NCBI RefSeq assembly: GCF_001294575.1 | Contig: NZ_CP012676.1 | Coordinates: forward strand, 682,001-746,000 | DNA from: Pseudomonas versuta | GTDB lineage: Bacteria; Pseudomonadota; Gammaproteobacteria; Pseudomonadales; Pseudomonadaceae | Reading direction: 5' to 3' | DNA: 64,000 nucleotides | Shown here: piece by piece, positions 20,607 through 58,478 of the stretch | Layout: each line of letters opens with the position of its first letter | How positions within the stretch are numbered: position 1 is the first letter of the stretch | Translations under genes and position numbers: made by a program | The notes under the pieces: model-generated | Told to the model about the DNA's origin: nothing | Databases searched by the model: none | The model's input: the letters and a program-made list of their open reading frames with translations, nothing else

Positions 20607-20696
20607 GGTGAAGTGTCCGAGTGGCTTAAGGAGCACGCCTGGAAAGTGTGTATACAAGAAATTGTATCGAGAGTTCGAATCTCTCCTTCACCGCCA
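20607..20696 (+). tRNA. tRNA-Ser (anticodon GGA)
   Basis: This is a 90-nt class II tRNA. Acceptor GGTGAAG pairs with CTTCACC, followed by discriminator G and encoded CCA. The anticodon loop CTGGAAA gives GGA. A long variable arm (TATACAAGAAATTGTAT) and T arm GAGAGTTCGAATCTCTC are present. The last 14 bases are duplicated at 61566-61579, so the 3' end of this gene served as the integration site of the island and is restored by it. Confidence 0.95.
20683..20696. repeat. attL core of the island
   Basis: CTCCTTCACCGCCA, the 3' end of tRNA-Ser, is repeated exactly at 61566-61579. Three of the next four bases also agree. It marks the left junction. Confidence 0.85.
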
Positions 20697-33036: not shown

Positions 33037-33415
33037 TCTGCATGGTCGCTGACGCAGGATCAAATCAGCGCTCACATCGTTTATGTGAGCCGGTTTCATA
33101 GACTGGAAATGTCTACGGTGTCGGGGGCAGTCCATGATCCAGGCGGCCAAGCTCAACGGGCATGATGGGTATACCTATTTGAAGGATGTGCTCATGCGCC
33201 TGCCGACGCAGCGGGCAAGTGGAATTGGGGAGTCGTTGCCGCATCGGTGGCCACCCGTTTAGTTGCGCAAGCAAGAAGGGATGCCCGGACGCTTATTCGA
33301 ACTCGAGAGGTACGATCACTGCACAAGTGATGGCCTTTGGCTAGAATGCCCCCACCCAGAACAGGGCTGGCGACTTCGTGACACACGTTGCTACCCCGAA
33401 TACAAGGAAGACTCT
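33037..33415. other. Gap after avs3b with a hairpin
   Basis: GCTCACAT (33070-33077) and ATGTGAGC (33083-33090) form a hairpin with a 5-base loop, a candidate terminator for avs3ab although only CGGTTT follows. The rest holds no supported gene. The reading frame of the SIR2 gene is open upstream to about 33263, but the region before 33416 lacks family similarity and a ribosome site. Confidence 0.5.
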
Positions 33416-35188
33416 ATGCCCATGATCGCCAATGACCCCACTACCCAGCTTGCATTCTCTGTATATGAGAACAAGGGAGTCTACGCGTTACTCCTAGGCT
33501 CAGGAGTATCCCGCGCCGCCGGTATTCCGACCGGCTGGGAGATCACCATGGAGCTAGTCAAACGTGCCGGTATTGCCTCAGGTGTCGGCGAGCAAGAGGA
33601 TTGGTATGCTTGGTATCGAGGTCAGACAGGAGAGCAGCCTAACTATTCCACGCTGCTGGAGACCTTAGCGGGCACGCAGAGCGAACGCAGAGCCATTGTG
33701 CAGAGCTTCCTGGAGCCTACAGCCCAAGAGCTGGAGGACGGTTTAAAAGTGCCCACCAGGGCTCATCGAGCTATCGCAGAAATGGTGCGTGCTGGACACG
33801 TGCGGGTCATCGTGACCACCAACTTCGACAGGCTGATGGAAAACGCACTGCGTGATGCAGGCATCGAGCCCACGATCGTGAGTTCGGTCGATACCCTGGC
33901 AGGAGCAGAACCGCTCACCCATTCCCAGTGCTTCATCCTCAAAATCCATGGCGATTACAAGGACGCCCGGATTCTAAATACGGATGTTGAACTGGGCGAC
34001 TACCCCACTGAATTCAACGCTCTGCTCGACAGGATAATCGATGAGTTCGGGTTGATCGTCGCCGGCTGGTCAGGAGAATGGGATCACGCCCTGAGGGCTG
34101 CGTTTCTACGCGCCCCTTCCCGACGCTACCCAACCTACTGGCTCGCCCGAGGAGGTGTATCTGAGCGCGCCCAAGAATTGGTCGCACGACGCCGCGCTTC
34201 GGTGGTTAGTGGGACTGATGCGGATACGTTCTTCGATGCTCTTAACCTGAAGCTTGAGACCATTCAAAAATCCCGCCAGCCCAATCCGGCGAGCGTCGAG
34301 CTGATGATCGCCATGGCAAAACGCTTCATGGACCGGCCTGAACACAGAATCCAGCTCGACGACCTGGTCACGGCTCAAACTCGACAGAGTATTGCTGATT
34401 TTTCACCTCTATTTGCAGGACAGGGTGACGTGAGAGCCCAGGCGTTCAGTGATTGGATTCCAGAGTACGAGGCTATCGCAGAACCAATCGCACGCCTTGC
34501 TTCAGTGCTAGGCCGATGGGGCACAGGTGATGAGCTGAGTCTCGTACTGGATGCCGTTAAAGGGCTATATGCCGAAGCTCATAGGGAGCAGGCTGGCTAT
34601 ACCCACTGGCTCGCCCTGAAGAATTACCCAGCTACGTTGGTCGTTCTTGGCTATTCACTGGGCCTGACCCGTGCAAATCGCCTTGACGTTCTATATAGCC
34701 TGCTCAATTCAACCGTCATTAACCGCCGTGAGCAACCAGGATTGATTGGTTATGAGTTGTCACCGTTCTATTTAGAGGCCGGCAACGGACTGCTGGCGCA
34801 CTGGAAAACCTTAGAGGATCAGAGCGACGCTCGTACACCGCTATCCAATCGCCTGGCCAGCCTCATTACCTGTAAATGGGCTCCCTCGTTCGCCGGAGTG
34901 CAGGATCCCGAGCTGCTGTACGAGCGTTTCGAGTTTCTGAACCTGCTGTTCTTCGCTCAAGCGAACGGCGTCAATGAAGAAGAGCTCAATAATCGAATAC
35001 AGCAGAGTCAATTTCGAAACATCGCGATGGGCCGTCTGTCGTGGCACTCGGAGACAATCTCGCGCTTTGCTCAGGAATACTCTACGGCGGAGTTCAACGC
35101 ACCCTTGCTTGCTGCCGGCTTTGCTTATGGCAGTGAGAGCTACCTCCAGCGATTCTTAGAAGGATTAGGCCGAATGAGCAGGTGGTAA
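33416..35188 (+). CDS. SIR2-domain protein, probable NAD-consuming defence effector
   Basis: This is a 590-residue protein. The N-terminal 230 residues form a SIR2 Rossmann domain: LLLGSGVSRAAGIPTGWE (27-42, NAD-binding), TTNFD (134-138), catalytic-histidine motif KIHGD (176-180) and VAGWSGEWDHALR. No zinc-ribbon cysteines are seen, as in the defence-type SIR2 proteins that hydrolyse NAD+. The remaining 350 residues are not recognised and presumably sense a trigger. It is not a STAND fusion (no P-loop) and is shorter than the DSR1/DSR2 proteins. AAGGAAG five bases before ATG 33416 fixes the start. It lies directly after Avs3. Confidence 0.8.
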   Translation: MPMIANDPTTQLAFSVYENKGVYALLLGSGVSRAAGIPTGWEITMELVKRAGIASGVGEQEDWYAWYRGQTGEQPNYSTLLETLAGTQSERRAIVQSFLEPTAQELEDGLKVPTRAHRAIAEMVRAGHVRVIVTTNFDRLMENALRDAGIEPTIVSSVDTLAGAEPLTHSQCFILKIHGDYKDARILNTDVELGDYPTEFNALLDRIIDEFGLIVAGWSGEWDHALRAAFLRAPSRRYPTYWLARGGVSERAQELVARRRASVVSGTDADTFFDALNLKLETIQKSRQPNPASVELMIAMAKRFMDRPEHRIQLDDLVTAQTRQSIADFSPLFAGQGDVRAQAFSDWIPEYEAIAEPIARLASVLGRWGTGDELSLVLDAVKGLYAEAHREQAGYTHWLALKNYPATLVVLGYSLGLTRANRLDVLYSLLNSTVINRREQPGLIGYELSPFYLEAGNGLLAHWKTLEDQSDARTPLSNRLASLITCKWAPSFAGVQDPELLYERFEFLNLLFFAQANGVNEEELNNRIQQSQFRNIAMGRLSWHSETISRFAQEYSTAEFNAPLLAAGFAYGSESYLQRFLEGLGRMSRW

Positions 35189-36073: not shown

Positions 36074-37159
36074 ATGGCGCGTTTATTTCAGATTATTTCT
36101 GACGATGGTAATCCAATCGACGCGCACTTCGGGATCGAGTCGGACGAGGTTGTATTCCACAGTCGTGGCGGTACCAAAGGTAAGGGCGCGATCAACTCCG
36201 AATATGCTCTGGGGCTTTCTGTTTTACTGGCCAGGCTGAAGCGGGCTTCGTTTGCAGTAGAACGCGTCTGGGTTGATAGCAGCCGCGTTCAAGGCATTCC
36301 CATTTCTCAGCGAACGATACTGACCTCGGAGGAGGGCCAGGTGCCTGTTGATCAGGTTGTGAAAGTCCTTTCCAGTCGAATGAAGGCCATTGGCCGATCG
36401 TCCTCTGAGTCCTCGGGAGGCAACTCCACTCGACGCATTAGGATGACGATATCTGGGGGCGATGTTCAGGCATTAAGTCTCGCGCTTGGTGGTATTCCTG
36501 TAGATAAAAATCTACGAAGCCTCGATCGGCTTCCGGTTGAAGTGCTTCGTGGAGTCACCGCCGAGCATATATGGCGTGCTGTTCAGGACCTGATCAGAGG
36601 AATTGATTCACCTGGCTTTGCTGAGTCAACCGATTACGACCTGATCGTTGATGAAAATCTCCGTTTGCCACCGAAGGCGGTATTTGGCTTAGCTGCTACA
36701 CGCGCTTTGGGATTTCAGATACTGCCAAAACATTTCATCGCTGGCGTTAGCAGCGTCTGTTTTCAAATCCTGGAAGGTGCTGGCTTCCGTATAGTGCCCA
36801 AAGGTGCCTTGATAGCTGATCCCGCACTGCCAACACTGCATGAAGATCGAGTATGGACTGAGGGGCAGCCCAGGCTCGTAGCTCATCTACGGAAGGAGCG
36901 CGCCCCAGGTTTGTCGATTGCCAAGAAAGCTGAATTCAAGAAGAACCACGGACGACTCTATTGCGAGCGCTGCAAAATTGATCCGGTTGAAGCTTACGGC
37001 GCCGAAAACGGAGAGGCCTGCATCGAGGTACACCATCGGACCGTGCAGGTTGCGCAAATGGCGGCAGGGCATCTGACAAGCCTGGAGGATTTACAATGCC
37101 TCTGCGCGAATTGCCACCGGGTTGTACATCGTGAACTGAGTGTTGGAAAGGAGAATTAA
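36074..37159 (+). CDS. HNH endonuclease, McrA-like
   Basis: This 361-residue protein has a C-terminal HNH domain. Zinc knuckles are C297-x2-C300 (CERC) and C344-x2-C347 (CANC). The catalytic region is EVHH (H320/H321), N346, and HRVVH (H348/H352). The N-terminal 280 residues hold LGLSVLLARLKRASFAVERVWVDSSRVQ and a middle domain with YDLIVDENLRLPPKAVFGLAATRALG, a segment common upstream of HNH in modification-dependent restriction enzymes. It probably cuts foreign, perhaps modified, DNA. No methyltransferase is nearby. Confidence 0.8.
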   Translation: MARLFQIISDDGNPIDAHFGIESDEVVFHSRGGTKGKGAINSEYALGLSVLLARLKRASFAVERVWVDSSRVQGIPISQRTILTSEEGQVPVDQVVKVLSSRMKAIGRSSSESSGGNSTRRIRMTISGGDVQALSLALGGIPVDKNLRSLDRLPVEVLRGVTAEHIWRAVQDLIRGIDSPGFAESTDYDLIVDENLRLPPKAVFGLAATRALGFQILPKHFIAGVSSVCFQILEGAGFRIVPKGALIADPALPTLHEDRVWTEGQPRLVAHLRKERAPGLSIAKKAEFKKNHGRLYCERCKIDPVEAYGAENGEACIEVHHRTVQVAQMAAGHLTSLEDLQCLCANCHRVVHRELSVGKEN

Positions 37160-37509
37160 ATTTTCTGGGTTGGGAAGCTGCTTGTGGTCAGGGGCTGATA
37201 ACCGGTCCCTGCCGGCACTTAGAGAGCTACTACGGGTTGGCAGAGATGACGGGAAAAGGTGCGCTCTCGGCCAATAGCAGTCATCGAGGCTGCCTAGCAG
37301 TGGCAACTAAGACGCCAAACCTCAGTCCGAGGAGGGTTTTACCGGCAAAAAGTGAACACCCGGAGGACTTTGGATTTCCCGGTTTGGATTGCAGTCATGC
37401 TAGCCGGATGGAATCCGACCCTCGACTATTTCGTCTCGCCAGTCCTTTCTGCGCCAAAAGCGCCCTCAGGCTATAAGCTAAGGCTTCAGTCCAGCCTGAC
37501 GGCCCTCGA
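37160..37509. other. Gap before the nuclease-STAND gene
   Basis: These 350 bases contain no supported gene and no strong hairpin. The promoter of the next gene should lie here. Confidence 0.4.
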
Positions 37510-40500
37510 ATGCACACACTATTTCAAGTAGACACAACGGATATAAAAGCCTTAAACGACGAGCAGGCGCGCGCGCTGATCGCAAGATTGTGTCGGGCTG
37601 AGATTCGCAAACACGGAGGCTCCGAGTCGGCCGTCACCTGGGGTGGCGATCAAAGAGCAAAAGATGGGGGAGTGGACGTAAGGGTAGAGATGAATCCGCC
37701 ACTAGGGATATCTGGCTATCTACCCAATGACAACACAGCCTTTCAGGTAAAGGCCGAAGTGTTCCCTCCTAGCAAGATACCTGGGGAAATGGCACCCAAG
37801 GGAGTGCTAAGACAAGCAATACGAGACCTCGCTGCGGCCAAAGGAAGTTACGTCATTGCTGCGACGCGAGACGACACCTCCGAGTCCGCTCTCAATCTAC
37901 GACTTAATGCGATTAGAGATTGCTTGTTGGCCAACGGCCTAGGCTCCTCGCCGCAGGTTGCCTTTTATGACGCAAGAAAGATTGCAGACTGGGTCGAGCA
38001 ACACCCAGCGATCGTAGCTTGGGTGAAACACGAGCTAGGCAAGCCACTTGTGGGTTGGCGCCCATACTCAGGTTGGGCCTACCAGGAGACAACCGTCGAC
38101 TCCGAATATCTGATCGATGAGCGAGTAAAAGTGTTCACTCCTGGCGCTGAGAAGGGCATAAATATCTTGTCCACTATTGATCGCCTGCGGCTCGACTTGT
38201 CGAAAGGAACAAGCGTACGCATTGTCGGCTTATCCGGAGTCGGCAAGACGAGATTGGTACAGGCACTCTTCGATCCGCGTGTAAAAACGAATCAGACTGA
38301 GCTGAGTGTTGATGACGTGCTGTACACGGACCTTTCAGATGGGCCATCACCTCAACCTTCAGCGATGCTCGAAGCGCTGATTGATGACGGAAGCCAGTGT
38401 GTTCTCGTCGTGGACAATTGCGGAGCTGATACTCATCAGAAGCTCACCGAGCTGCTTAAGAAATCGGGCAGCAAGATTGGCTTGGTTACTGTTGAGTACG
38501 ACGTTCGCGACGACTTACCAGAGGCCACGAAGTGCTACCGTCTAGAAGGCTCCTCCGATGACGTTATCAAGCGGCTTCTTCAGCGGCGTTATCCGGTTCT
38601 ATCAATCAGTGACGTTGATACCATCACGACATTCTCAGACGGTAACGCTCGCGTCGCGTTTGCACTGGCAGCGACGGTGACGACGACTAGTGAACTGGCG
38701 CGGCTGCGGGACTCCGAGTTGTTCAATCGCCTGTTCCATCAGAAGAGCGTCGAGAATGAAGATCTCCTCAGATGTGCGGAAGCGGCCAGTATCCTGTACT
38801 CGTTCGATGGCGAGGACGATGGCCCTGAGGCAGAGCTCAGCAAAATTGCCGCTGCTGCTGACGTTTCATTGATCACTTTGCAGAGGAAAGTGGTCGATCT
38901 ACAGCGAAGAGGCCTCGTACAGAAACGCGGTAAATGGCGTGCTGTTCTGCCACACGCGATTGCTAATCGACTCGCAGCCCAGGCACTAGAAGCGATTCCC
39001 AAATCGCAAATTGTGAATGTCTTTGTCGAAACTGCTACCGACCGTGTTGTCCGCTCGTTCTCCCGGCGACTTGGTTACTTACATGAAAGCGCAAAAGCCG
39101 CCGAGCTTATACGGGACTGGCTCTCGCCATCTGGGCGTTTTGGCGACCTAACGACTCTCAATGACATTGGCCATGAGGTCTTTCACAACATTGCGCCTGT
39201 ATCCCCGAAGATCGCCCTAGCGGCGATTGGACGGGCTGCCAATGTCCCTAGCTTCCTTTCGAGCGAAAACAGCAAGCGTGCTCAGTATGCGAATACATTG
39301 AAAGCCATCGCGTTCGAAGAAGAAGACTTCGATATCGCCGCCGATATTCTCGTCCGGTTTGCCTTGCTGGACCCGAAGAAAAATGGGGGGTACGAATCTA
39401 TTGTTGAAATTTTGAAGTCTTTGTTTTTCTGCGTGTTATCCGGTACGAATGCTTCCCCCAATCAAAGGGCAGAGTTCGTCATAAAACTGCTTAAGTCTGG
39501 CGATACCGAGCAAGAGCAGTTGGGGCTGTTGCTGCTCGATGCGGCGCTTGAGGCAGGGCATTTTACCTCCGTGAGCAGATTCGATTTCGGAGCTCGAAAG
39601 CGGAGCGAGGGATGGGCTCCGGAAACCCGATCAGACGTTGAAGCGTGGTTTATGCCATTCCTCCGCATGGCACTCGACATTGGCAAGCAGAAGTCCGACC
39701 TTGCTGAAAGTTGCAGATCTATTTTGGGTCGCCGCTTAAGAGGACTTTGGCTTGGCACGAGTCTGAGGCCAGAAGTGTGTGCAGCCGTAAAAGAACTGGC
39801 TTCAGTCGTGAGCTGGCCTCAAGGTTGGTTTGGAGTCAAAAGCATCCTTCGCTATGACTCGGGCAAATGCGATGAGTCAGTTCAGAACGAGCTGCGCGAG
39901 TTGGAGGGGCTTCTCAAACCGAAGGCTATACCCGACATGATTCGAGCTAAACTTCTAGACTCGAACCATTTCGACCTGGATCTTGATGGCGATGATGCAG
40001 ATCCGCACGATAAAACGGCTGGTGAGCGAATCCGCAAATCAAACCAGGTCTTGGAGGAGCTTGGAGAGGCTGCTGCCACCATTGACGGCCTACTCTTGGA
40101 GTTACTTCCGCAATTGATCTCAACCAAGGTAGGAGCCAGTGCATTTCCTTTGGGGGTTGGTGTTGGAAAGCAGATTGCGGACCCGAAATGGCTTTTGGAT
40201 GCGGCTAAGGAACATATCGCCTCTGCCACGCCCGGAGCAGTCGGTGTCTTGTTCCTACGCGGCTTGCTCAACGGCTGGCATCACGCATCTCCTGCTTGTG
40301 CCGAGAAGTTTCTCGACAGTGCGGTGACTGATGAAATTTGGGTCAAGTGGATCATGGATCTTCATTGCATACCGATGAACCAAGCGGCTTACAATCGAAT
40401 CCACCGATCAATCAAGGCTGGAAATACTCCTGCCTGGCAATACTCCTATCTCGGGATGGGCAGACAAACCGACTCATTCTCTGTTGCAGAGATTGGCGAG

Positions 40501-41388
40501 TTGGTTTGTGTGATAGCACTGCTGCCTGATGGAGGTGGTGTGTTTCTCGACGTCCTTTCTATGGTCGTCCACTGCGCGTCAGATCACGATGATGCTTATA
40601 AGGAGTCTCTAGCAATAACTTGCCTGAATCTTCTGCGCTCAGCAGAGTGGGGAAAGGTGCTTGGGGATCGCGCCAATAGCGGTTACCACATTGAGAGCAT
40701 ATTGGAGTTTTCGCTGAAGCGATTAGCTTCTTCCGAAGCAGCGCTTGAGGTGTTGAACGGTCTAGTTACCTGCGCACGCACGATGGAAATTAGTTATACC
40801 GCTAGAGATGCCATCAAAGATGCCATCTCGCTGTTCCTCAGGCACATGCCGCGACAGGCGCTCGACGCGATCTATGTTCCCGGCGAAGAAGCCTACTACC
40901 GTCAGATGTCGCCGGTAATTGGGCGCCCTTACAATGATAGGAAGGAGACAGCACTGAGCGTAGTCCCAGTGGACGTATTGGTCGATTGGTGTAATGCCTC
41001 GCCGCCTGATCGTTACGTGTTCGCGGCACGGAGCTGCAAGCTATTCGACACCCGAAGTCGAGCAAGTGAAGAACATACCAATGTCGACTCTGTGGACGAT
41101 TCTGATTTGGTTATTTCGGACACCGCGCTCGCTTTGCTTGCTAATGCTCCTGATAAGAAGGCTGTCATCGAAGCCTATTTGAAGCGATTTTCGCCTTCAG
41201 GCTGGTCCGGGTCTTTGGCCGAAATTCTGAAGAAACGGATTCCGCTTCTCGATACTCTGAGTCTCGGTAATAAGGAACAGCTCAAGCCAGTATTGGCAAC
41301 GGCTAGAGCGAGCCTCGAACGAAGAATCGCGGTGGAAGAGCTTCGAGAGGACGAAGAGGAGCGTGAGCGTACTGGGAGTTTCGAATAG
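37510..41388 (+). CDS. Nuclease-STAND ATPase, Avs-like, type not recognised
   Basis: This is a 1292-residue protein. Residues 30-180 form a restriction-endonuclease-like domain: WGGDQRAKDGGVDV (D56) followed by FQVKAE (Q79, K81, E83) is a PD-(D/E)XK core. A STAND-type ATPase follows, with Walker A GLSGVGKT at 240-247 and Walker B CVLVVDNCG at 297-305. A winged helix lies at about 440-480 (AAAADVSLITLQRKVVDLQRRGLVQKRG). From about 500 on the protein is helical repeat-like, ending in an acidic/basic tail (ELREDEEERERTG). This nuclease-ATPase-sensor order is that of AVAST proteins, but the gene is shorter than Avs2-Avs4 and stands alone. No clear Shine-Dalgarno precedes ATG 37510. Confidence 0.75.
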   Translation: MHTLFQVDTTDIKALNDEQARALIARLCRAEIRKHGGSESAVTWGGDQRAKDGGVDVRVEMNPPLGISGYLPNDNTAFQVKAEVFPPSKIPGEMAPKGVLRQAIRDLAAAKGSYVIAATRDDTSESALNLRLNAIRDCLLANGLGSSPQVAFYDARKIADWVEQHPAIVAWVKHELGKPLVGWRPYSGWAYQETTVDSEYLIDERVKVFTPGAEKGINILSTIDRLRLDLSKGTSVRIVGLSGVGKTRLVQALFDPRVKTNQTELSVDDVLYTDLSDGPSPQPSAMLEALIDDGSQCVLVVDNCGADTHQKLTELLKKSGSKIGLVTVEYDVRDDLPEATKCYRLEGSSDDVIKRLLQRRYPVLSISDVDTITTFSDGNARVAFALAATVTTTSELARLRDSELFNRLFHQKSVENEDLLRCAEAASILYSFDGEDDGPEAELSKIAAAADVSLITLQRKVVDLQRRGLVQKRGKWRAVLPHAIANRLAAQALEAIPKSQIVNVFVETATDRVVRSFSRRLGYLHESAKAAELIRDWLSPSGRFGDLTTLNDIGHEVFHNIAPVSPKIALAAIGRAANVPSFLSSENSKRAQYANTLKAIAFEEEDFDIAADILVRFALLDPKKNGGYESIVEILKSLFFCVLSGTNASPNQRAEFVIKLLKSGDTEQEQLGLLLLDAALEAGHFTSVSRFDFGARKRSEGWAPETRSDVEAWFMPFLRMALDIGKQKSDLAESCRSILGRRLRGLWLGTSLRPEVCAAVKELASVVSWPQGWFGVKSILRYDSGKCDESVQNELRELEGLLKPKAIPDMIRAKLLDSNHFDLDLDGDDADPHDKTAGERIRKSNQVLEELGEAAATIDGLLLELLPQLISTKVGASAFPLGVGVGKQIADPKWLLDAAKEHIASATPGAVGVLFLRGLLNGWHHASPACAEKFLDSAVTDEIWVKWIMDLHCIPMNQAAYNRIHRSIKAGNTPAWQYSYLGMGRQTDSFSVAEIGELVCVIALLPDGGGVFLDVLSMVVHCASDHDDAYKESLAITCLNLLRSAEWGKVLGDRANSGYHIESILEFSLKRLASSEAALEVLNGLVTCARTMEISYTARDAIKDAISLFLRHMPRQALDAIYVPGEEAYYRQMSPVIGRPYNDRKETALSVVPVDVLVDWCNASPPDRYVFAARSCKLFDTRSRASEEHTNVDSVDDSDLVISDTALALLANAPDKKAVIEAYLKRFSPSGWSGSLAEILKKRIPLLDTLSLGNKEQLKPVLATARASLERRIAVEELREDEEERERTGSFE

Positions 41389-41924
41389 GGTAACCCGATG
41401 CTCCCATTGACCGGTAGCTAGCCGCCCTAAACCGGTAGCTATTGATCGTTAGCCATCCAATCGCCGATAGCAGCTTTGGGTCGAAAGCGGTCAATCGCGA
41501 ATGACTGCAAGCGACCGATTCTGTTGAAAAAGTCGGCCATGGTTAGCGCATCAATAAAGTACATGTCCGGGATTGAAATCTTTAATTTTGGCAGAAGCTT
41601 CCGGACTCGGATTTCACGTAGCAACGTGCAAAAAAGGCGTTTTCACCAGTCAATGATCGGACAGTTTGGACAGATCGACTTTTTCAACAGCATCGACCCA
41701 AAGCAGACGTTGAGTCTCTTGCCTGCTGGCCATGATCCGGGTAAGCCAAGTAACACGAGGCTTTCAGCCAATTATGACCATCCAACCCACCGGAAAATTG
41801 TCACAAACTAGTCAAAAATCACAGCCGGGTGCACCTGTGCGGTGCTCGTGGCACTACCATACATCTACCGCCGAGCCTCTGGCCGGTATCACCTGCGTGG
41901 GCGCCCGAAGGGATTGCACGGTTA
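41389..41924. other. Repeat-bearing intergenic stretch
   Basis: These 536 bases contain CAGCTTTGGGTCG at about 41471 and CGACCCAAAGCAG at about 41694 in opposite orientation, and the inverted pair described separately at 41516-41695. No gene is seen. The sequence looks like leftover ends of mobile or dispersed repeats. Confidence 0.5.
41516..41695. repeat. 180-bp segment with 20-bp near-perfect terminal inverted repeats
   Basis: The right arm CGACTTTTTCAACAGCATCG (41676-41695) matches the reverse complement of 41516-41535 at 19 of 20 positions. The inside is non-coding. It could be a MITE-like remnant or two opposing copies of a dispersed Pseudomonas repeat. Confidence 0.6.
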
Positions 41925-43559
41925 CTAAGGGGCTTGCCAGTCGATTGTGTTAGAAATGTATATGCCGTCAGCTTCTCTATCTCGCTCAGCCTTTTCACGG
42001 ACACAGAATACAAATGAGAACATTGCCGAGCGGGTTATTTGGAGAAGTTGTTCAAGGTGCCCGACAAACGCAGCCTCTTGAATAAGTTCTATGTCCTTGC
42101 TTGCCTCAAACGAGCCGTAGATATCGACCGGCCTCTCTCCTGCGTAAAGCACAACAAATTTGTGCTCGAAGTTGTTTCGCCAGTCTTTGTAGAAAGCAAG
42201 CTCGCCGTCCTTATGCTTGTTCAGGTCAGTAGCGAGGCTATAGAGTGCTATTAGCCCCGGCGTTTTTATTGACTCAAATAGTTCGCGCCTATCAGGTTTT
42301 TCGAGCCGCCAGAAGTTATGAAAATAAATATCACCGCCCGGATGGACTGAGTAGAGGTCGCAAATGGCAGCCCCGATTTTATCTAGTATTCCGAAACACA
42401 GCCTAAATGATGTCCTGAGCTTCTCCACACCCATGCTCAGGAGTTCACCGTTAAAGAGTTCTGAAAAGCAGGACTCGTGTTTGGACTCATTATCCTGAAT
42501 GTCGTTTTGATGTTCATAGTAAAATAGTCTCGCCAATGAAAATTCTGACTTTAGGCGATTCAGCACCATTTCCATTGCAGGAACAAAATCACCCACAATC
42601 CCCGAGGAGCTCGGAATCGTCAGGTTATCTCGAGCACTACCCGTGCACGCACAGTAGAGGCCATGCTCAGAAAGAGAAAGATGCCTCGATAGTACAAACT
42701 TTCTGAAGTCCGTAAGCTCGTTGAACTCTGTTTGCGTGTCGTGTAAGTCAAGCGCACGATCATCTGCCTCTATGCCGAGTTGCTCGCAGGTATGATTTAT
42801 CTTCTTCTCCAAGTGGCAGGCATAGGTTTTATAGTGGGCGCGCCAAGACGGAGGAACCCCATCGCAGTTAGCGGCTTTTTCGTATCCCGACTTAACTTCA
42901 TGGAGCATCTGCACGGAGTACGAACCCGAAACCTGGTTGAGCATCATCAGGGCTTCTGATCGATTGATCCATGCTTCGGGGATGTCTAACGAAAGGGAGT
43001 TGACACGATCATAGAAATCCAAGGATTCACTGAGTCTAAACTGTCGCTTTAGAATATTCCCAAGGTTTACCATTAGCTGAGGAAATATGGGCGAGGTTTT
43101 TTTTTGGTGGAACTTCAACGACTTCCACAACAGGGCTTTTATGTCAATCAGTTCTTCAATGGATTTGAATGTGTGCTTGAATGGGTCGCTTTCCTTGATT
43201 AGACCCACGCGAGCGTTACTTAGATTGTAATAATATTCACCCTCTCCGGAGACGTCGATAAAGTCCTGTTTATTTTCCTCCATGAGGGTTAACCCTAGAT
43301 TCGATGACTCCCTATTTATGCTCATACTTCCGACATCAACCAAAAGTCCAGAAATATTGAGCAGCAAGCGAATCCTATATGTATCGTTAGAGACCGCCTT
43401 TATGCGCTCCAGCAGTGAAAGTGCTCTAGAGTAACAATCAGAGAACTCCCCGGAACTGAGCAGCTCATATAGCGCGGCCAGTTCTTCCACCATTAATTGT
43501 ATTTCCAAAGCACAGCTCTGTCTGTCGTCAGTATTACTAATCTCGTAGCTGTCATCCAT
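41925..43559 (-). CDS. LA2681-type HEPN protein with helical N-terminal repeats
   Basis: This is a 544-residue protein. The N-terminal 260 residues look like TPR-type helical pairs (FSDCYSRALSLLERIKAVS; LMVNLGNILKRQFRLSESLDFYDRV; EAWINRSEALMMLNQ). The C-terminal 200 residues carry the HEPN RNase signature R461-x4-H466 in YKDWRNNFEHKF, preceded by FRLCFGILDKIGAAICDLY, as in the LA2681-like HEPN family. HEPN proteins of this kind are usually toxins or defence RNases. A nucleotidyltransferase gene lies upstream on the same strand, which may be a functional partner. Confidence 0.75.
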   Translation of the reverse strand: MDDSYEISNTDDRQSCALEIQLMVEELAALYELLSSGEFSDCYSRALSLLERIKAVSNDTYRIRLLLNISGLLVDVGSMSINRESSNLGLTLMEENKQDFIDVSGEGEYYYNLSNARVGLIKESDPFKHTFKSIEELIDIKALLWKSLKFHQKKTSPIFPQLMVNLGNILKRQFRLSESLDFYDRVNSLSLDIPEAWINRSEALMMLNQVSGSYSVQMLHEVKSGYEKAANCDGVPPSWRAHYKTYACHLEKKINHTCEQLGIEADDRALDLHDTQTEFNELTDFRKFVLSRHLSLSEHGLYCACTGSARDNLTIPSSSGIVGDFVPAMEMVLNRLKSEFSLARLFYYEHQNDIQDNESKHESCFSELFNGELLSMGVEKLRTSFRLCFGILDKIGAAICDLYSVHPGGDIYFHNFWRLEKPDRRELFESIKTPGLIALYSLATDLNKHKDGELAFYKDWRNNFEHKFVVLYAGERPVDIYGSFEASKDIELIQEAAFVGHLEQLLQITRSAMFSFVFCVREKAERDREADGIYISNTIDWQAP

Positions 43560-43922: not shown

Positions 43923-44711
43923 TCACCCCCAAGTTTCTTTCAGCACAGAGCGAAACAGTTCGGAAAGTAATGGTTCAACTTCTTTGCGTTCGCTACGGAT
44001 CGGCTTGATGGTTTCAAGTCGATGCAGTTCACGCTCAATAAATTGCTGGATGGGGATGATCTGGGGCGATAGGCCCATCTCCGGAGACGCGCGCTTAATC
44101 ACAAGTAAGTCATCAATAGCTTGCTGAAGCTCGGGCTCTCTTTCGATCACACCGCGTAGCTTGTCAAACTCTATGGGGGCGGGCGTATCAAACTGTTCCA
44201 GCCACCGCACCGATAACAAGGGGCGCAGTACGTAAAAGTATTTTTTCAGCGGTACCTGAGGGTTCTGCAAATATCCCCTATAGTTGGTTTTTGCCATGCT
44301 GCGATAATGGTAGATGCCACTCTCTACCGAATACACGTGCGGCAGTAACTCTTTAGCCCGCTCGTGAAAGGATCCAGAGTGTTCGTAAATGATGGTCGAC
44401 TGCACCCACTCCACAAAGCCTGGGTTTGACTTCCAGAATAGCCTAAGCGCTTTTCGTAGATCCCAGCCATTGATGTCCATGTCGTCAATGATCGGATACT
44501 CGATGACGTCGCGTTGCTCCTCAAGGCCGACCGAGAGATACCACTCAGGTTTATTTACGTAGATGAAGCGTGCGTCGTAGTCGCTGTTGGGAGAGGCAAA
44601 TCCCCAGGCGCGACTGCCAGACTCAACCGCTAAAAGCATTTTCACGTCATGCTCGTCCTCCGCGCGGCGTAGGCGGCTTCGAACCTCTTCCTGAATAGCC
44701 ATAGAAACCAT
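43923..44711 (-). CDS. Nucleotidyltransferase of the RlaP/PF10127-like group
   Basis: This 262-residue protein has the polymerase-beta-type nucleotidyltransferase motif GSRAWG (32-37) followed by SDYD (43-46), the two metal-binding aspartates, then FIYV. This pattern matches predicted nucleotidyltransferases sometimes linked to RNA ligases. It stands 363 bases upstream of the HEPN gene on the same strand. In HEPN/MNT systems such an enzyme adds nucleotides to the HEPN toxin, so it could be an antitoxin here; that is inference only. Two starts are possible (44711 and 44702). Confidence 0.78.
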   Translation of the reverse strand: MVSMAIQEEVRSRLRRAEDEHDVKMLLAVESGSRAWGFASPNSDYDARFIYVNKPEWYLSVGLEEQRDVIEYPIIDDMDINGWDLRKALRLFWKSNPGFVEWVQSTIIYEHSGSFHERAKELLPHVYSVESGIYHYRSMAKTNYRGYLQNPQVPLKKYFYVLRPLLSVRWLEQFDTPAPIEFDKLRGVIEREPELQQAIDDLLVIKRASPEMGLSPQIIPIQQFIERELHRLETIKPIRSERKEVEPLLSELFRSVLKETWG

Positions 44712-53277: not shown

Positions 53278-55941
53278 ATGAGCGCATCAGCCGAAAACTC
53301 GACTTCGATCGTCATCGATCTCGATCACAGCGATAGCAATACAAAGCTTGAGGTAAATCAGCTCGTTCAGCATCAGAGCTACAGCACGCTTGCGAAGCGC
53401 ATTAAGACAGATTTAGATAGTGCCAAGAAGCTCCGTCAGCTCCAACACGCCTCTCGAATAGAAAATGAATATCCGTATGGCAGCGGATTGGTTTACTTCA
53501 TTGATGGTACCCGCGGCGCAGGAAAATCTACGTTCTTGCAAAGCGCCTTTGACGCACTGGGAAATGAAAAGACCGAGCCCAGCGTCAGCCGATTGGCCTA
53601 TATCGATCCAAGCCGCATTGAACACAGTGAAATCATCCTACTGAGCATCTTAAAAGCCCTTAAAGACCGCATTAAGTGTGCTAAAAACGGCTCTAGCTTG
53701 GACCAGGAAAACCTACTCAAACACTTCCGCGAGCAGTTCAAGAAACTAGCAGGAGGGTTAAGCCTTTTTACCCAGAACCACGATCAACTTCAGGATCTAG
53801 ACCCGGAACTGTTTTTTGAGTGGGGCTTGGAGCGGGCAGGGCACAGTGCGGAGCTGCGCAAAAACCTCCACGCGCTTCTCGATTTGGCCTGCCAGGTTCT
53901 AGGCACTGATGCGCTCCTCCTCGCCTTTGACGACGCCGATACCCATGCGCACCACGCGCGTAGCGTGCTCGAATGCATACGTAAGTACCTCGATACTCCA
54001 CGCCTAGTGGTACTTGTAACCGGCGACATTGAACTGTATTCATTAATGGTCAGGGATCACTTTTATGAGAGCCTAGGCGATGCCAAGCATGGTCAGGCGA
54101 AGGAGCGCGCAGACCAGCGTCATAAGATGGTCGATCATCTAGAAGACCAATATCTTCTCAAGCTTTTCCCCATGCACCGTCGTTTGCAATTGCGACCGCT
54201 GTGGAATCTTCTTCAATATGATGAAAACCGGTTCCGACTGGCCCATTCTCAATGGGATAAGCAGCTAACTCCAAATGAATTAGTCGGCACTTTGATCCGG
54301 CGCGGCCTGCGAATCAAAAATCCGCGTGATCTTGATCTCTATCGAGAGTTCCTACTAAAACAGCCATTGCGCTCGGTGCTTCAAGTGCTGTCTCGATGCG
54401 CGCCCTACTATGACCCAGAAGGCCCTGACACATGGAGTCAAAACCTTTCCGAAGCTCTGAGCGAGAGCTTACGTGCGCTAGCTTTGGGCAGCTTGTATAA
54501 GTTTGGTGTGGATGTTGACGCCATCGCAGCCCACGAACTACCTGCACTTACCAAGGCCGTGTTTGACTTGGCAATACGTGACGGCGATTTCGACACGGCT
54601 GTGTACCTCCGCCCCCAGCCAAGTGACGCTGATCTCAAGAACAGCTTTGCCGCACTTTCCGCGGATGTAACACGTTTATGCGCGGAGAAACCGGCAGCGC
54701 TAATCGACTACATGCTGGCTGCACCTGGCAGCGTGGCGCTGTTCGGACGGGTGTTAAGGCGCAAGGGTAAAGAACTCCAGACTGCAGAAGCTCGTCAGAC
54801 CCTACGCATACAGTTCGAACAATATATGGGCATCGGACGCAAAGAGGACGCCTTGAATTGGGCCCGCCACGCTGTAGCAATTCTCTCTGCACCTCATGGA
54901 GCTAACCCGAAAAACCCACTGGTCTACTCCGGCATCATTGGCCTTAACAAAGGCAAGCCTGACCACGCCCCTATTGAGAGCGAATCTGGCTATAGGTCGG
55001 CTCTTAGCGTCATCAGAGAATTCAACGAACTACCAGCTTTCGCGCTCAGCCTTGTGGATGTATCGGGAACATCATCTCGGACCTATGCATCGATCTACAA
55101 TATCCTTGGCCTTATAGCCCGGCTGCTCTCACTTCAACCGAAAGGTGGCCAATACCCTGTACTTAGTGTGTTACCGAAGCCGTTTCCTCCGTTGAGCGTA
55201 TCCCAACCCCAATGGGAAGCCGACACGGCTGATGAAGAGGAGCTCGAGCAAGATGCGTCTGGGGACGCAGGAAAGCTCACCACACTCGAAACAGCGATCA
55301 AACATTGGCTTACCGTAACTGTAGAAACCCGCAAACAGTTGAACCCATCGGCTGTACTGATCGGAAAGATCTGGACCCGCCTGTATTTCAGTCTTGAGAA
55401 AGTGTGTGAGGCCAACCGATCGAAGGTCTCCTCTATGTCGACGGGAACGGGAACAGCCAGCCTCATGGAGCTTTTTGCTTTGTGCGTCATCAATGCTGTC
55501 TACATCGAGGAGCAGGATCACCATTTAAGTAGCAGTACAAATTCTACTGACAGTAGTTCTGCGTTGGATCGTACTAATCCGCAGACGTCAGCCAAAGCTT
55601 TTATTGATAAGTTCAAGGATATCAGTGACTCTCGCAAAGAGCTCCCTCTGACCTACCTCATTGCAACCTGTCCCTTGCTCTTAGGGCTATTGCAGGCAAC
55701 TCCTAAAGCGAAGGAATTGGTCGATGCTCTTCTGTCCTGTCTCCCTGCTTCATTGGATGCGCATGAAGAATCAAGCGATTCACGGCCTGAAAATTTAGCG
55801 CTTCAAGCTAAAGATTTGATGTGCTCTACGAACACTTGGAAAAAAATCAACAAAACATACATTTCCGGTACTAAATGGAAAAATATGCCGACCCAGGACC
55901 GTCCTCAAGACAGCTCTGATGAGGAGTCAGTAGGACCTTGA
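53278..55941 (+). CDS. rdrA: RADAR ATPase RdrA
   Basis: This 887-residue protein has a P-loop at residues 77-84 (GTRGAGKS, in YFIDGTRGAGKSTFLQ) and Walker B LLLAFDDAD at 213-221. Then comes VVLVTGDIELYSLM, a sensor strand of this KAP/AAA-like ATPase. The rest is helical and ends in a low-complexity acidic tail. RdrA partners with the adenosine deaminase RdrB, encoded immediately downstream with overlapping stop and start, in RADAR phage defence. AGGA six bases before ATG 53278 supports the start. Size and neighbour fit the family. Confidence 0.88.
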   Translation: MSASAENSTSIVIDLDHSDSNTKLEVNQLVQHQSYSTLAKRIKTDLDSAKKLRQLQHASRIENEYPYGSGLVYFIDGTRGAGKSTFLQSAFDALGNEKTEPSVSRLAYIDPSRIEHSEIILLSILKALKDRIKCAKNGSSLDQENLLKHFREQFKKLAGGLSLFTQNHDQLQDLDPELFFEWGLERAGHSAELRKNLHALLDLACQVLGTDALLLAFDDADTHAHHARSVLECIRKYLDTPRLVVLVTGDIELYSLMVRDHFYESLGDAKHGQAKERADQRHKMVDHLEDQYLLKLFPMHRRLQLRPLWNLLQYDENRFRLAHSQWDKQLTPNELVGTLIRRGLRIKNPRDLDLYREFLLKQPLRSVLQVLSRCAPYYDPEGPDTWSQNLSEALSESLRALALGSLYKFGVDVDAIAAHELPALTKAVFDLAIRDGDFDTAVYLRPQPSDADLKNSFAALSADVTRLCAEKPAALIDYMLAAPGSVALFGRVLRRKGKELQTAEARQTLRIQFEQYMGIGRKEDALNWARHAVAILSAPHGANPKNPLVYSGIIGLNKGKPDHAPIESESGYRSALSVIREFNELPAFALSLVDVSGTSSRTYASIYNILGLIARLLSLQPKGGQYPVLSVLPKPFPPLSVSQPQWEADTADEEELEQDASGDAGKLTTLETAIKHWLTVTVETRKQLNPSAVLIGKIWTRLYFSLEKVCEANRSKVSSMSTGTGTASLMELFALCVINAVYIEEQDHHLSSSTNSTDSSSALDRTNPQTSAKAFIDKFKDISDSRKELPLTYLIATCPLLLGLLQATPKAKELVDALLSCLPASLDAHEESSDSRPENLALQAKDLMCSTNTWKKINKTYISGTKWKNMPTQDRPQDSSDEESVGP

Positions 55942-58478
55942 ATAACGACATGCGCGAACAGCCTATCTCAGTTCTTGCTCAGATAGGCACTACGCTTCTT
56001 TCCAGTAACAAGGTACTTGCCTTGTTGCGGCAGACGCCGTTTCATCAGCCTCTTAGCTTGCGAGAACTACGTGAGGCGGCGTATCTGGGGCATTTACCTT
56101 GGTCGGCTCGCTTACCTGATCACGTTTTTGAACATAGCTGGCAATTGCTGGCACAACAGGCTGCTAACAGAGACAGAGCTTGCCTATTGATAAATGCATT
56201 GCAGGCAATGAGCAATGAGTTTTTGGAGCACCGGCACGGTGCCTTGTATGTTAGGCAACAGAAGTTTGGTGCTTGGCAGCAAAGTGTTGTCAGTCGCATA
56301 TCAGGCTTGCCTTTGCTGGCGGCTGCAAAAGCCTCAGTGCTGCCTCACCCACAGCCTGCAATCGAGATGCGGACCCAATGGCCCTGGGAGCCTCCGCAAA
56401 GCTGGGCTAGCAAGAATCTGCCTGTCGTCAGCCCATACGACCCTTTTGTAGAAGATTACTTAGGCCGTGAGGGACTGCATGAGACGCATATGCACCTTAA
56501 TGGGAGCACGCATGCGGAGAATTGTTGGCTGCGGGCACTTCGTACGCCCAAACAGGAAACCAAGGACTTCAGTCTAAAGTGGAACAGCCTCAGCGCGTCC
56601 GACGCAGTAGCAGTTCGTGAATTAGCGCGATCCATCGACCCGGACCTCTCGCCTGTTGAATTGCATCGTCAACTAGTCGCAGCCAGCCGCTTGAGAAAGT
56701 GGCTGGTGGCGGCAGCGACCGGTACGCTCAGCGCAGAAGTCAAACTTCCCCATGATCTCATTGAGCTGATGGACGACGAAAGCCTACAGAAGGAAGTGCC
56801 GGAACCAGTGCCGGCACAATTGCAGCTTTCAGCGAATAGTAGCGCGGCGGACGAGTTGTATTGGATACAACACTTTTTACGCAGGAGCATGAATCATTCT
56901 AGCGTAGCGCTCGATCGCATGTTCCACACTTATCTAGTTCTCCAAAACCAGTATTATCGCCTTCTGGTGCAAAGCGAAGAGCAATTTGGTTTCGATCAGT
57001 TTCAGAAGTTTACGTACAACCAGTTGCGGGAACCCGCCGAGGAGGACTATTTGCCTCGTTTCTGGGCCATGCATGGCAAAGCGAATAACGTAAGTCGCAC
57101 TACCTATCTCGAAGGTCGACTGTCACCTAAAAACACATTACGTAAGAACCACAAGCTGCTCAAAGCTGTTTTGGGCGGTTATTGGTGTTACCTAAATAAT
57201 CAAGATCCTCAGGGGCGTGGAGTAAATCCGTCGCCCGGTAAACTTGGTGAGTTGCTGGAGAGGCTAGAAGAACATTTTCGCAAAACGTCGCCCCTTGATC
57301 GCTCGCACCACCGCCTTGCTTTAGTTGTGCATTTCATAAAAAAATCTTGGACGCCCGGCCGAAAGGCAGGTCCGTACCGCTTTTATAAGCAACGTTTGGA
57401 GCTTGAACTTACAACTAATGTATTGCTGGAATGCCTAGCTCGCTGGCCCCGCCTGAGAAGCTGGATACGCGGAATCGATGCCGCTGCAAATGAACTACAT
57501 GCTCCTCCTGAGATATTTTCCAGTTGCTATCGTGTGTGCCAGCGGGCAGGCCTCACTCACCGCACCTATCATGCTGGTGAGGACTTTGCGCACCTTTTGA
57601 GTGGGCTTCGCACCATATATGACGCATTGGAGCTTCTTGATCTGCGTGACGGTGACCGCATAGGTCATGGAACAGCGATGGGTATCTCGCCCAAGCTGTG
57701 GCTGGAGCGTATGCCGGGTCAGTTGGTGATCAAGAAAGGCGAATGGATGCTGGACTTGCTGGCCGCGTGGCGTCTGCTTCGTACCATACCAAGCGCAGCA
57801 GTCGCAGCCGCGCGTGTGGCGGATGATTTGACTAAATGCGCAGGCGAAGTGTTCCGCCGAGAAATGAGCTGTACCTCACTAGAGGCCGTTATGGAACTCC
57901 GGCACCTAAACATTCGCTTTGTACAGGCTGCCCTAGAAACAGATTGGTCCCCAGGCATAACTCCGCTAAGTGATCTCTGGCAGAGTGAGGCGCAAAGGGT
58001 CATGGATGCTAAACGAAGCCGCCCTCAACACTTAAAGCTGTTGTGGGAATGGCTCAGCGATCGAGATTTGTGGGAGCGAAGTGAGACACTGCAGAGTGTT
58101 GACGCGGCTTATTTCGATGAGGCCACCTATCTGCATCTCCAGCAGGCATTAATGCGTGAAGTCGCTCACCGCAATGTGATCATCGAAACACTGCCATCAA
58201 GCAATGTGCGCATCAGTCAGTACAACAGTTTTAGTGAGCACCACTCTCTACGCTGGATGCGCGCTCCGGGCTTTGTTCAAGAAGGAGATCCAGAAATTAT
58301 GGTTTCTCTCGGATCGGACGATCCAGGAATTTTTGCCGGGGATCTGAATGGTGAGTTCTACCAGCTATATGGCGCTCTGCGCAATCACGGCCTAAACGAC
58401 CGTGCGGCACTGGCGCTCCTAGCCCCAATCAATGAGCGTGGCCGCGCTTATCGTTTCCATGACCCGCTACTGGGCTAA
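55938..58478 (+). CDS. rdrB: RADAR adenosine deaminase RdrB
   Basis: This protein of about 846 residues belongs to the metal-dependent adenosine deaminase superfamily. Zinc-site and catalytic motifs are all present: HMHLNGS at 184-190 (HxH), THRTYHAGEDF near 545, DRIGHGTAMG near 573 and SLGSDDPGIF near 792. Large insertions separate them, as in RdrB, which assembles into large shells and deaminates adenosine in nucleotides or RNA during infection. TTG 55938 overlaps the rdrA stop by four bases (TTGA); ATG 55950 is an alternative start, four residues shorter. No accessory SLATT-type gene follows. Confidence 0.9.
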   Translation: MNNDMREQPISVLAQIGTTLLSSNKVLALLRQTPFHQPLSLRELREAAYLGHLPWSARLPDHVFEHSWQLLAQQAANRDRACLLINALQAMSNEFLEHRHGALYVRQQKFGAWQQSVVSRISGLPLLAAAKASVLPHPQPAIEMRTQWPWEPPQSWASKNLPVVSPYDPFVEDYLGREGLHETHMHLNGSTHAENCWLRALRTPKQETKDFSLKWNSLSASDAVAVRELARSIDPDLSPVELHRQLVAASRLRKWLVAAATGTLSAEVKLPHDLIELMDDESLQKEVPEPVPAQLQLSANSSAADELYWIQHFLRRSMNHSSVALDRMFHTYLVLQNQYYRLLVQSEEQFGFDQFQKFTYNQLREPAEEDYLPRFWAMHGKANNVSRTTYLEGRLSPKNTLRKNHKLLKAVLGGYWCYLNNQDPQGRGVNPSPGKLGELLERLEEHFRKTSPLDRSHHRLALVVHFIKKSWTPGRKAGPYRFYKQRLELELTTNVLLECLARWPRLRSWIRGIDAAANELHAPPEIFSSCYRVCQRAGLTHRTYHAGEDFAHLLSGLRTIYDALELLDLRDGDRIGHGTAMGISPKLWLERMPGQLVIKKGEWMLDLLAAWRLLRTIPSAAVAAARVADDLTKCAGEVFRREMSCTSLEAVMELRHLNIRFVQAALETDWSPGITPLSDLWQSEAQRVMDAKRSRPQHLKLLWEWLSDRDLWERSETLQSVDAAYFDEATYLHLQQALMREVAHRNVIIETLPSSNVRISQYNSFSEHHSLRWMRAPGFVQEGDPEIMVSLGSDDPGIFAGDLNGEFYQLYGALRNHGLNDRAALALLAPINERGRAYRFHDPLLG

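Follow-up and report, generated by a model that had tools for sequence, protein, structure and literature searches.

A PD-Lambda-4_A-family protein of Pseudomonas versuta with the predicted architecture of an Avs-like, single-gene nuclease-STAND receptor

Introduction

What kind of protein is encoded by a large nuclease-ATPase gene that stands without a partner in a defence island of Pseudomonas versuta, and could it sense phages on its own? The gene is an open reading frame (ORF) with an ATG start (37510..41388, forward strand) and a product of 1292 amino acids; it lies in a stretch of 64,000 nucleotides (contig NZ_CP012676.1, positions 682,001 to 746,000), all of which was analysed and is called the window below. 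A first-pass annotation, made from the letters without database searches, had described the product as a stand-alone nuclease-STAND ATPase of a less described branch, with the effector-ATPase-sensor order of Avs proteins and matching no named AVAST type. We find that the protein is, by its sequence, a member of the PD-Lambda-4 component A (PD-Lambda-4_A) family. We consider it probable, at roughly two chances in three, that it is a single-protein, Avs-like, phage-triggered nuclease receptor.

Vassallo et al. chose 21 systems and cloned them with their native promoters, and each of them reduced plaquing (PMC9519451). A review, in its entry on PD-lambda-4 of Vassallo et al., lists it as a P-loop NTPase system, and the mechanism is not stated in that entry (PMC10952713). 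The E. coli PD-Lambda-4_A protein used for comparison in this work is equated with the cloned one by its PADLOC name.

Results

Family assignment

Searched as a whole against PADLOC, the protein matched PD-Lambda-4_A (PDLC03991) over nearly its entire length (859.1 bits, E 1.4e-258, residues 4-1285 aligned with positions 3-1280 of 1283). The first-pass annotation had proposed separate profile searches of the domains, and in these the same PADLOC model was the best for each segment (138.2 bits for residues 1-175, 316.8 bits for 175-500 and 364.4 bits for 501-1292). No Avs model was found with the whole protein in PADLOC and NCBIfam at E up to 1, nor with any of the three segments in PADLOC at E up to 5; Avs membership was rejected on this ground, and by profile the protein lies outside the named types Avs1-Avs5. 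The statement that it matches no named AVAST type was therefore right, but the branch is not an unnamed one. The annotation had named a placement in a described Avs type or in a non-defence ATPase family as grounds for refuting its reading; the full-length match is to a defence family instead. Pfam gave sub-threshold matches only and, at E up to 5, none for residues 1-175, and NCBIfam gave only ABC-ATPase models far under their cut-offs.

The E. coli protein (1283 amino acids) fits the family profile fully, with 2531.7 bits. The Pseudomonas protein resembles it in near-equal length, in the full-length profile match and in the conserved nuclease and P-loop residues, but of 1269 aligned positions only 29.1% are identical in the two (residues 1-165: 34.8%; 175-500: 38.9%; 501-1292: 23.6%), and the Pseudomonas gene has no linked B gene. 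There is one copy of the gene in the host genome (5,149,788 bases, single contig), and a contig of Pseudomonas sp. 8Z carries the same gene. The features of the protein and of its relatives are collected in Table 1.

Table 1. Features of the gene, its product and selected relatives. Coordinates are those of the window unless a locus (L) is named; residue numbers refer to the 1292-residue protein.
Feature	Position	Strand	Evidence
PD-Lambda-4_A-family STAND-like nuclease, 1292 aa	37510..41388	+	ORF; PADLOC PDLC03991, 859.1 bits
N-terminal PD-(D/E)XK-type nuclease domain (residues 1-165), exchanged in relatives	37510..38004	+	predicted model; PD-Lambda-4_A the only PADLOC match of residues 1-175; replacement in relatives
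Nuclease motif D56 ... Q79-V-K81	37675..37752	+	conserved in 90/91 aligned rows
STAND-like P-loop ATPase (about residues 180-440)	38047..38829	+	AAA+/NLR fold matches over 180-520
Walker A GLSGVGKT (240-247)	38227..38250	+	K246 and T247 in 91/91 rows
Walker B LVVDN (299-303)	38404..38418	+	D302 in 90/91 rows, N303 in 91/91
Winged-helix-like element (about 441-480)	38830..38949	+	model; weak, sub-threshold HTH matches
All-helical solenoid, putative sensor (about 481-1292)	38950..41385	+	
Single-gene cassette: outer limits of DNA common to close relatives	37264..41444	+	blastn, 88.7-89.4% identity
PD-Lambda-4_A cores with other N-terminus	L011 4233-8360; L099 4206-8327; L101 4188-8327; proteins P0121-P0143		
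Natural chimera, Moraxella osloensis plasmid: Avs4-type nuclease on PD-Lambda-4_A ATPase-sensor	L100 4509-8255		

Motif conservation and predicted folds

Conservation was read from an alignment of 91 rows (the window and 90 loci, with L005/L021 and L013/L016 as duplicates), from which L001 and L004 (the window itself), L015 (a shortened E. coli copy) and L038 (without a complete ORF) were omitted. The only row without D56, Q79 and K81 is L011, whose N-terminus is a different domain, and the single departure in the Walker residues K246, T247, D302 and N303 is an E in place of D302 in one row. The structure predictions used 73 of these rows for residues 1-640 and 79 for residues 480-1292; L002, L003, L005, L006, L010 and L016 are examples of rows left out.

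The core of PD-(D/E)XK enzymes consists of elements in the order alpha-beta-beta-beta-alpha-beta with a D ... (D/E/Q)-X-K motif. The model of residues 1-640 (predicted local distance difference test score 88.3) has the same order of elements, with D56 directly before strand 57-60 and with Q79 and K81 within strand 75-81, which suggests that residues 1-165 adopt a PD-(D/E)XK-type fold and are a nuclease. Further on, the P-loop ATPase region gave AAA+/NLR fold matches spanning residues 180-520. Helices 442-450 and 454-466 and the short strands 470-473 and 476-479 fit a winged helix; the helix-turn-helix (HTH) matches of this region were weak and sub-threshold. The P-loop together with the winged helix, resembling those of NLR proteins and Apaf-1, places the ATPase in the STAND NTPase superfamily. 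The model of residues 480-1292 is helical almost throughout, and the fold matches listed for this solenoid are HEAT/ARM-like. Motifs and models thus support what had been read from the letters: the nuclease core, both Walker motifs at their positions, the winged helix, the long helical C-terminus and the effector-ATPase-sensor order.

The comparison with Avs structures that the annotation had suggested was made with Foldseek. Among solved structures, the one ranked first for residues 1-640 was that of Avs4 in complex with a phage portal (8dgf_B, E 2.2e-8); next came NOD2 (E 1.0e-7), then Apaf-1 (E 3.9e-6). Avs4 also shares the order nuclease, STAND, helical sensor, but the protein has no Avs4 profile match, the Avs4 profile is longer (1570 positions vs 1292 residues), and the sensor of the Pseudomonas protein matches HEAT/ARM-like folds. 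In Avs1-Avs5 as a group, the definition given in PMC12931631 is an effector, a STAND NTPase and a C-terminal sensor in this order, which the Pseudomonas protein would share if its solenoid is the sensor. With the eukaryotic proteins NOD2, Apaf-1 and NRC4 the likeness is in the P-loop ATPase region, which aligns in fold searches, whereas their effectors and sensors are other ones; sequence search with the protein found no NLR, and with the alignment only a weak match to the P-loop of Roq1 (E 0.11).

Several results weigh against a relationship with Avs proteins. Clamp-loader AAA+ proteins score equal or higher in VIA-align, hhalign of the family alignment (residues 1-640) against Avs3a of the window found nothing, and Avs4 was not among the matches listed in the PDB sequence searches. 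Because of these negative searches, the case for a link with Avs is built on the fold, on the order of the domains and on one natural Avs4 chimera, described below, and not on the sequence of the ATPase. The clamp-loader matches, together with a weak sequence match to TnsC (E 0.00026), could also point to a non-defence AAA+ ATPase with a regulatory or transposition-related role, but the conserved nuclease motif, the full-length match to a defence family and the surrounding defence genes make this very improbable, and with the TnsC match being so weak it was rejected.

Exchange of the N-terminal domain in relatives

Relatives were gathered with the Lelliottia protein L011, a query of the hydrolase type, and the best 120 of 254 proteins were kept, hence the following counts are not frequencies. 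Together with three plasmid loci (L099, L100 and L101), 123 proteins were surveyed for their N-termini. In 27 of them the match to the Pseudomonas protein begins after residue 130, at 150-180; 25 of these carry about 240-284 other residues in front, P0228 is N-terminally short and L100 stands apart. A precomputed alpha/beta-hydrolase Pfam domain is present in 19 of the 23 listed proteins P0121-P0143, and alpha/beta-hydrolase domains were matched by P0122, P0127 and P0140 in our own searches. The named sources of proteins with another N-terminus are Citrobacter, Enterobacter, Pantoea, Lelliottia and Vibrio. The 15 hydrolase rows included in a quick tree all fall into a single clade (support 99), consistent with one swap.

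L100, a single sequence, comes from a Moraxella plasmid. Its residues 1-165 match Avs4 (220.4 bits; Avs2 12.6 bits) and not PD-Lambda-4_A, while residues 166-1248 score 420.6 bits against PD-Lambda-4_A and match no Avs model. It is a natural chimera in which an Avs4 nuclease has been joined to a PD-Lambda-4_A core. In six nuclease-type relatives the nuclease is preceded by more than 40 residues, which hold a LexA-type DNA-binding domain in P0217 (searched here) and P0238 (precomputed). Judged by these sequences, the N-terminus is exchangeable among the relatives. It is the C-terminal half, the putative sensor, that diverges fastest.

These observations bear on an alternative in which the ligand of the protein is nucleic acid (DNA that is foreign or damaged) and not a phage protein, and in which the protein gives direct immunity as a self-contained restriction-like nuclease. 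The ATPase does resemble DNA-acting AAA+ proteins and, weakly in its sequence, TnsC, and Vassallo et al. note that, of 11 systems whose components bind or cleave DNA, 7 conferred direct immunity and not abortive infection (PMC9519451). The relatives in which a predicted esterase/lipase replaces the nuclease have, however, no obvious need for a DNA ligand, and the fold search ranks Avs4 first, followed by NOD2 and Apaf-1, so we regard this alternative as rather unlikely.

A single-gene unit

The region 26000-61000 of the window was compared by blastn with six loci, two of which (L005 and L021) are one record, leaving five distinct relatives. Each locus shares one block, with edges at 37264-37279 and 41397-41444, which comprises the gene with 231-246 bp upstream and 9-56 bp downstream of it; in the rest of the 35 kb nothing is shared with the five relatives within their flanks (1.5 kb for L005 and 8 kb for the others). 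The copy in one of these relatives, Corticimicrobacter populi (Alcaligenaceae), falls together with one from Pseudomonas putida in a quick tree (support 99), therefore the gene crosses families.

Neighbours were studied in named-genome loci, the best 80 of 322; among the 79 loci with a complete A gene, 68 are flanked by 1 kb or more on each side. The nearest ORFs on either side, with ORFs longer than 900 or shorter than 130 amino acids or more than 3 kb away excluded, numbered 130 (from 76 of the 80 loci). At E up to 1e-5 four pairs were alike, and clustering found no conserved partner among the 130, no neighbour family recurring beyond two loci. Among the matches listed at E up to 1e-10 (the first 25 of 142 families), GajA models have two matching neighbours, as has Old; models of type I restriction, methylation, dGTPase and AbiD are among those with a single match. 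The gene thus behaves as a single-gene unit, in agreement with its first description as stand-alone, with no linked partner found and with the shared DNA ending at the gene.

Short similar repeats, considered as a candidate mobile signal, were noticed by eye at both edges of the cassette (37264-37284 and 41400-41520). The repeat has three matches in the window, a number reached in 6 of 100 shuffles, and four in the genome vs four in the reversed control. For an inverted match between the edges, no more than 18 of 500 shuffles did as well in four of six loci, but 380 and 369 did so in the other two. The promoter consensus found no promoter-like site, terminator-like sites were fewer than the shuffled mean, and the window has no Rfam match at gathering scores. 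As to carriage by phages, there was no match in 50,697 phage records; viral contigs gave three pattern stretches, none of which is a relative, and the patterns used can detect only close ones.

The PD-Lambda-4_B gene

In the E. coli loci L013, L015 and L016 only 45 bases separate A from a downstream B gene. When two B sequences were compared with all ORFs of at least 60 amino acids in 98 loci and the window, these were the only loci in which B adjoins A; the window holds no B-like ORF of that size, and none was found in the flanks of the 80 named-genome loci. The protein is therefore a PD-Lambda-4_A member at a locus that departs from the two-gene arrangement. The B ORF of L013 (9898-10810) does not reach the length of the profile; overlapping it is a second, separate ORF with similarity to a portion of the Pseudomonas B. 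At least 80% of the A-B stretch is held by 131 of 5426 E. coli genomes, which is no count of B because A alone would just pass this threshold. A second E. coli lineage of A (34 of 5426 genomes) had no B in the two loci examined, L014 and L102.

A full-length B homologue (319.4 bits) does occur in the host genome, at 276730-277632 (L007 1492-2409), about 442 kb from A. It lies near an ORF that resembles glyA by eye, and there is no A nearby. Other B homologues are on plasmids of Pseudomonas aeruginosa and of actinobacteria (9 of 72,556 records). It could be supposed that the distant B acts in trans and that the A gene is half of a two-gene system. Of 95 related genomes five have A, four have B and two have both (hypergeometric P 0.013, calculated as if the genomes were independent, ignoring kinship). 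On the other hand, three of the five A-bearing genomes have no B anywhere, and the absence of B beside A outside the three E. coli loci, the B-less second lineage and the shared DNA that stops at the gene all speak for A as a separate unit. We consider an action of B in trans improbable.

The surrounding defence island

The location in a defence island is supported, and of the two systems named earlier as its members Avs3 is present, whereas RADAR applies only loosely. Avs3 lies beside the gene, with 3120.7 bits for Avs3a (PADLOC) and 301.3 bits for Avs3b; the NCBIfam score of Avs3a, 2722.9, is slightly below the cut-off of 2800. Avs3a/Avs3b and the PD-Lambda-4_A protein are neighbours and, by name, both nuclease-STAND receptors, but they have no detectable profile similarity and differ in length (2082 vs 1292 residues), and Avs3 has a small second gene, which the PD-Lambda-4_A gene lacks. 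In the RADAR-like pair (53278-58478) the first gene reaches 151.7 bits against an NCBIfam RdrA cut-off of 600, with the match confined to about the first 330 residues, and the second has a weak RdrB match and an adenosine deaminase domain.

Directly after Avs3a/Avs3b there is a SIR2-domain protein (33263-35188) that matches the PADLOC candidate PDC-S65 (713.3 bits). A protein of 361 amino acids with a weak C-terminal HNH match (36074-37159) is encoded just upstream of the gene, outside the shared cassette. On the reverse strand lie a HEPN_LA2681 protein (41925-43559) and, adjoining it, an RlaP-family RNA-repair protein (43923-44711). A tRNA-Ser(GGA) gene (20607-20696) is perhaps near one border of the island.

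Discussion

The domain order, the single joint at which effectors are swapped, the rapid evolution of the solenoid and the structural matches to Avs4 and NLR proteins favour a ligand-switched receptor that activates whichever enzyme stands at its N-terminus. PMC12931631 describes phage proteins (terminase, portal or another one) as the activators of Avs1-4, which cut phage and host DNA. By analogy, the STAND-like ATPase of the Pseudomonas protein would hold the N-terminal nuclease inactive in the resting state, until a molecule made by the phage, most probably a protein, docks onto the divergent helical solenoid at the C-terminus. Binding may then lead to nucleotide exchange and to oligomerisation through the ATPase and the winged helix, and the oligomer would bring the PD-(D/E)XK domains side by side for DNA cutting, by which infection would be aborted or the phage genome destroyed. 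The trigger, the oligomerisation, DNA as the substrate and the outcome for the cell are all transferred from better known receptors.

PD-Lambda-4_A occurs in 12 phyla, judged by record titles. On balance we favour the view that it is a large family of single-gene STAND immune receptors beside Avs1-5, which travels as a one-gene cassette, swaps its effector near residue 165 (its own nuclease, an Avs4 nuclease or a lipase-like alpha/beta-hydrolase) and diversifies its sensor, B being a local addition in some E. coli and no part of the core mechanism. We found no paper on the PD-lambda-4 family as STAND receptors; the search covered open-licence papers without preprints, so this is weak evidence.

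PADLOC requires both A and B for PD-Lambda-4. A detection tool with this requirement would miss members such as the Pseudomonas gene. The question that this raises is which phage product the helical sensor of PD-Lambda-4_A recognises. Placing component A among STAND-like receptors would give PD-lambda-4 a testable mechanism, and the natural fusions with an Avs4 nuclease and with hydrolases mark the point at which the effector is exchanged.

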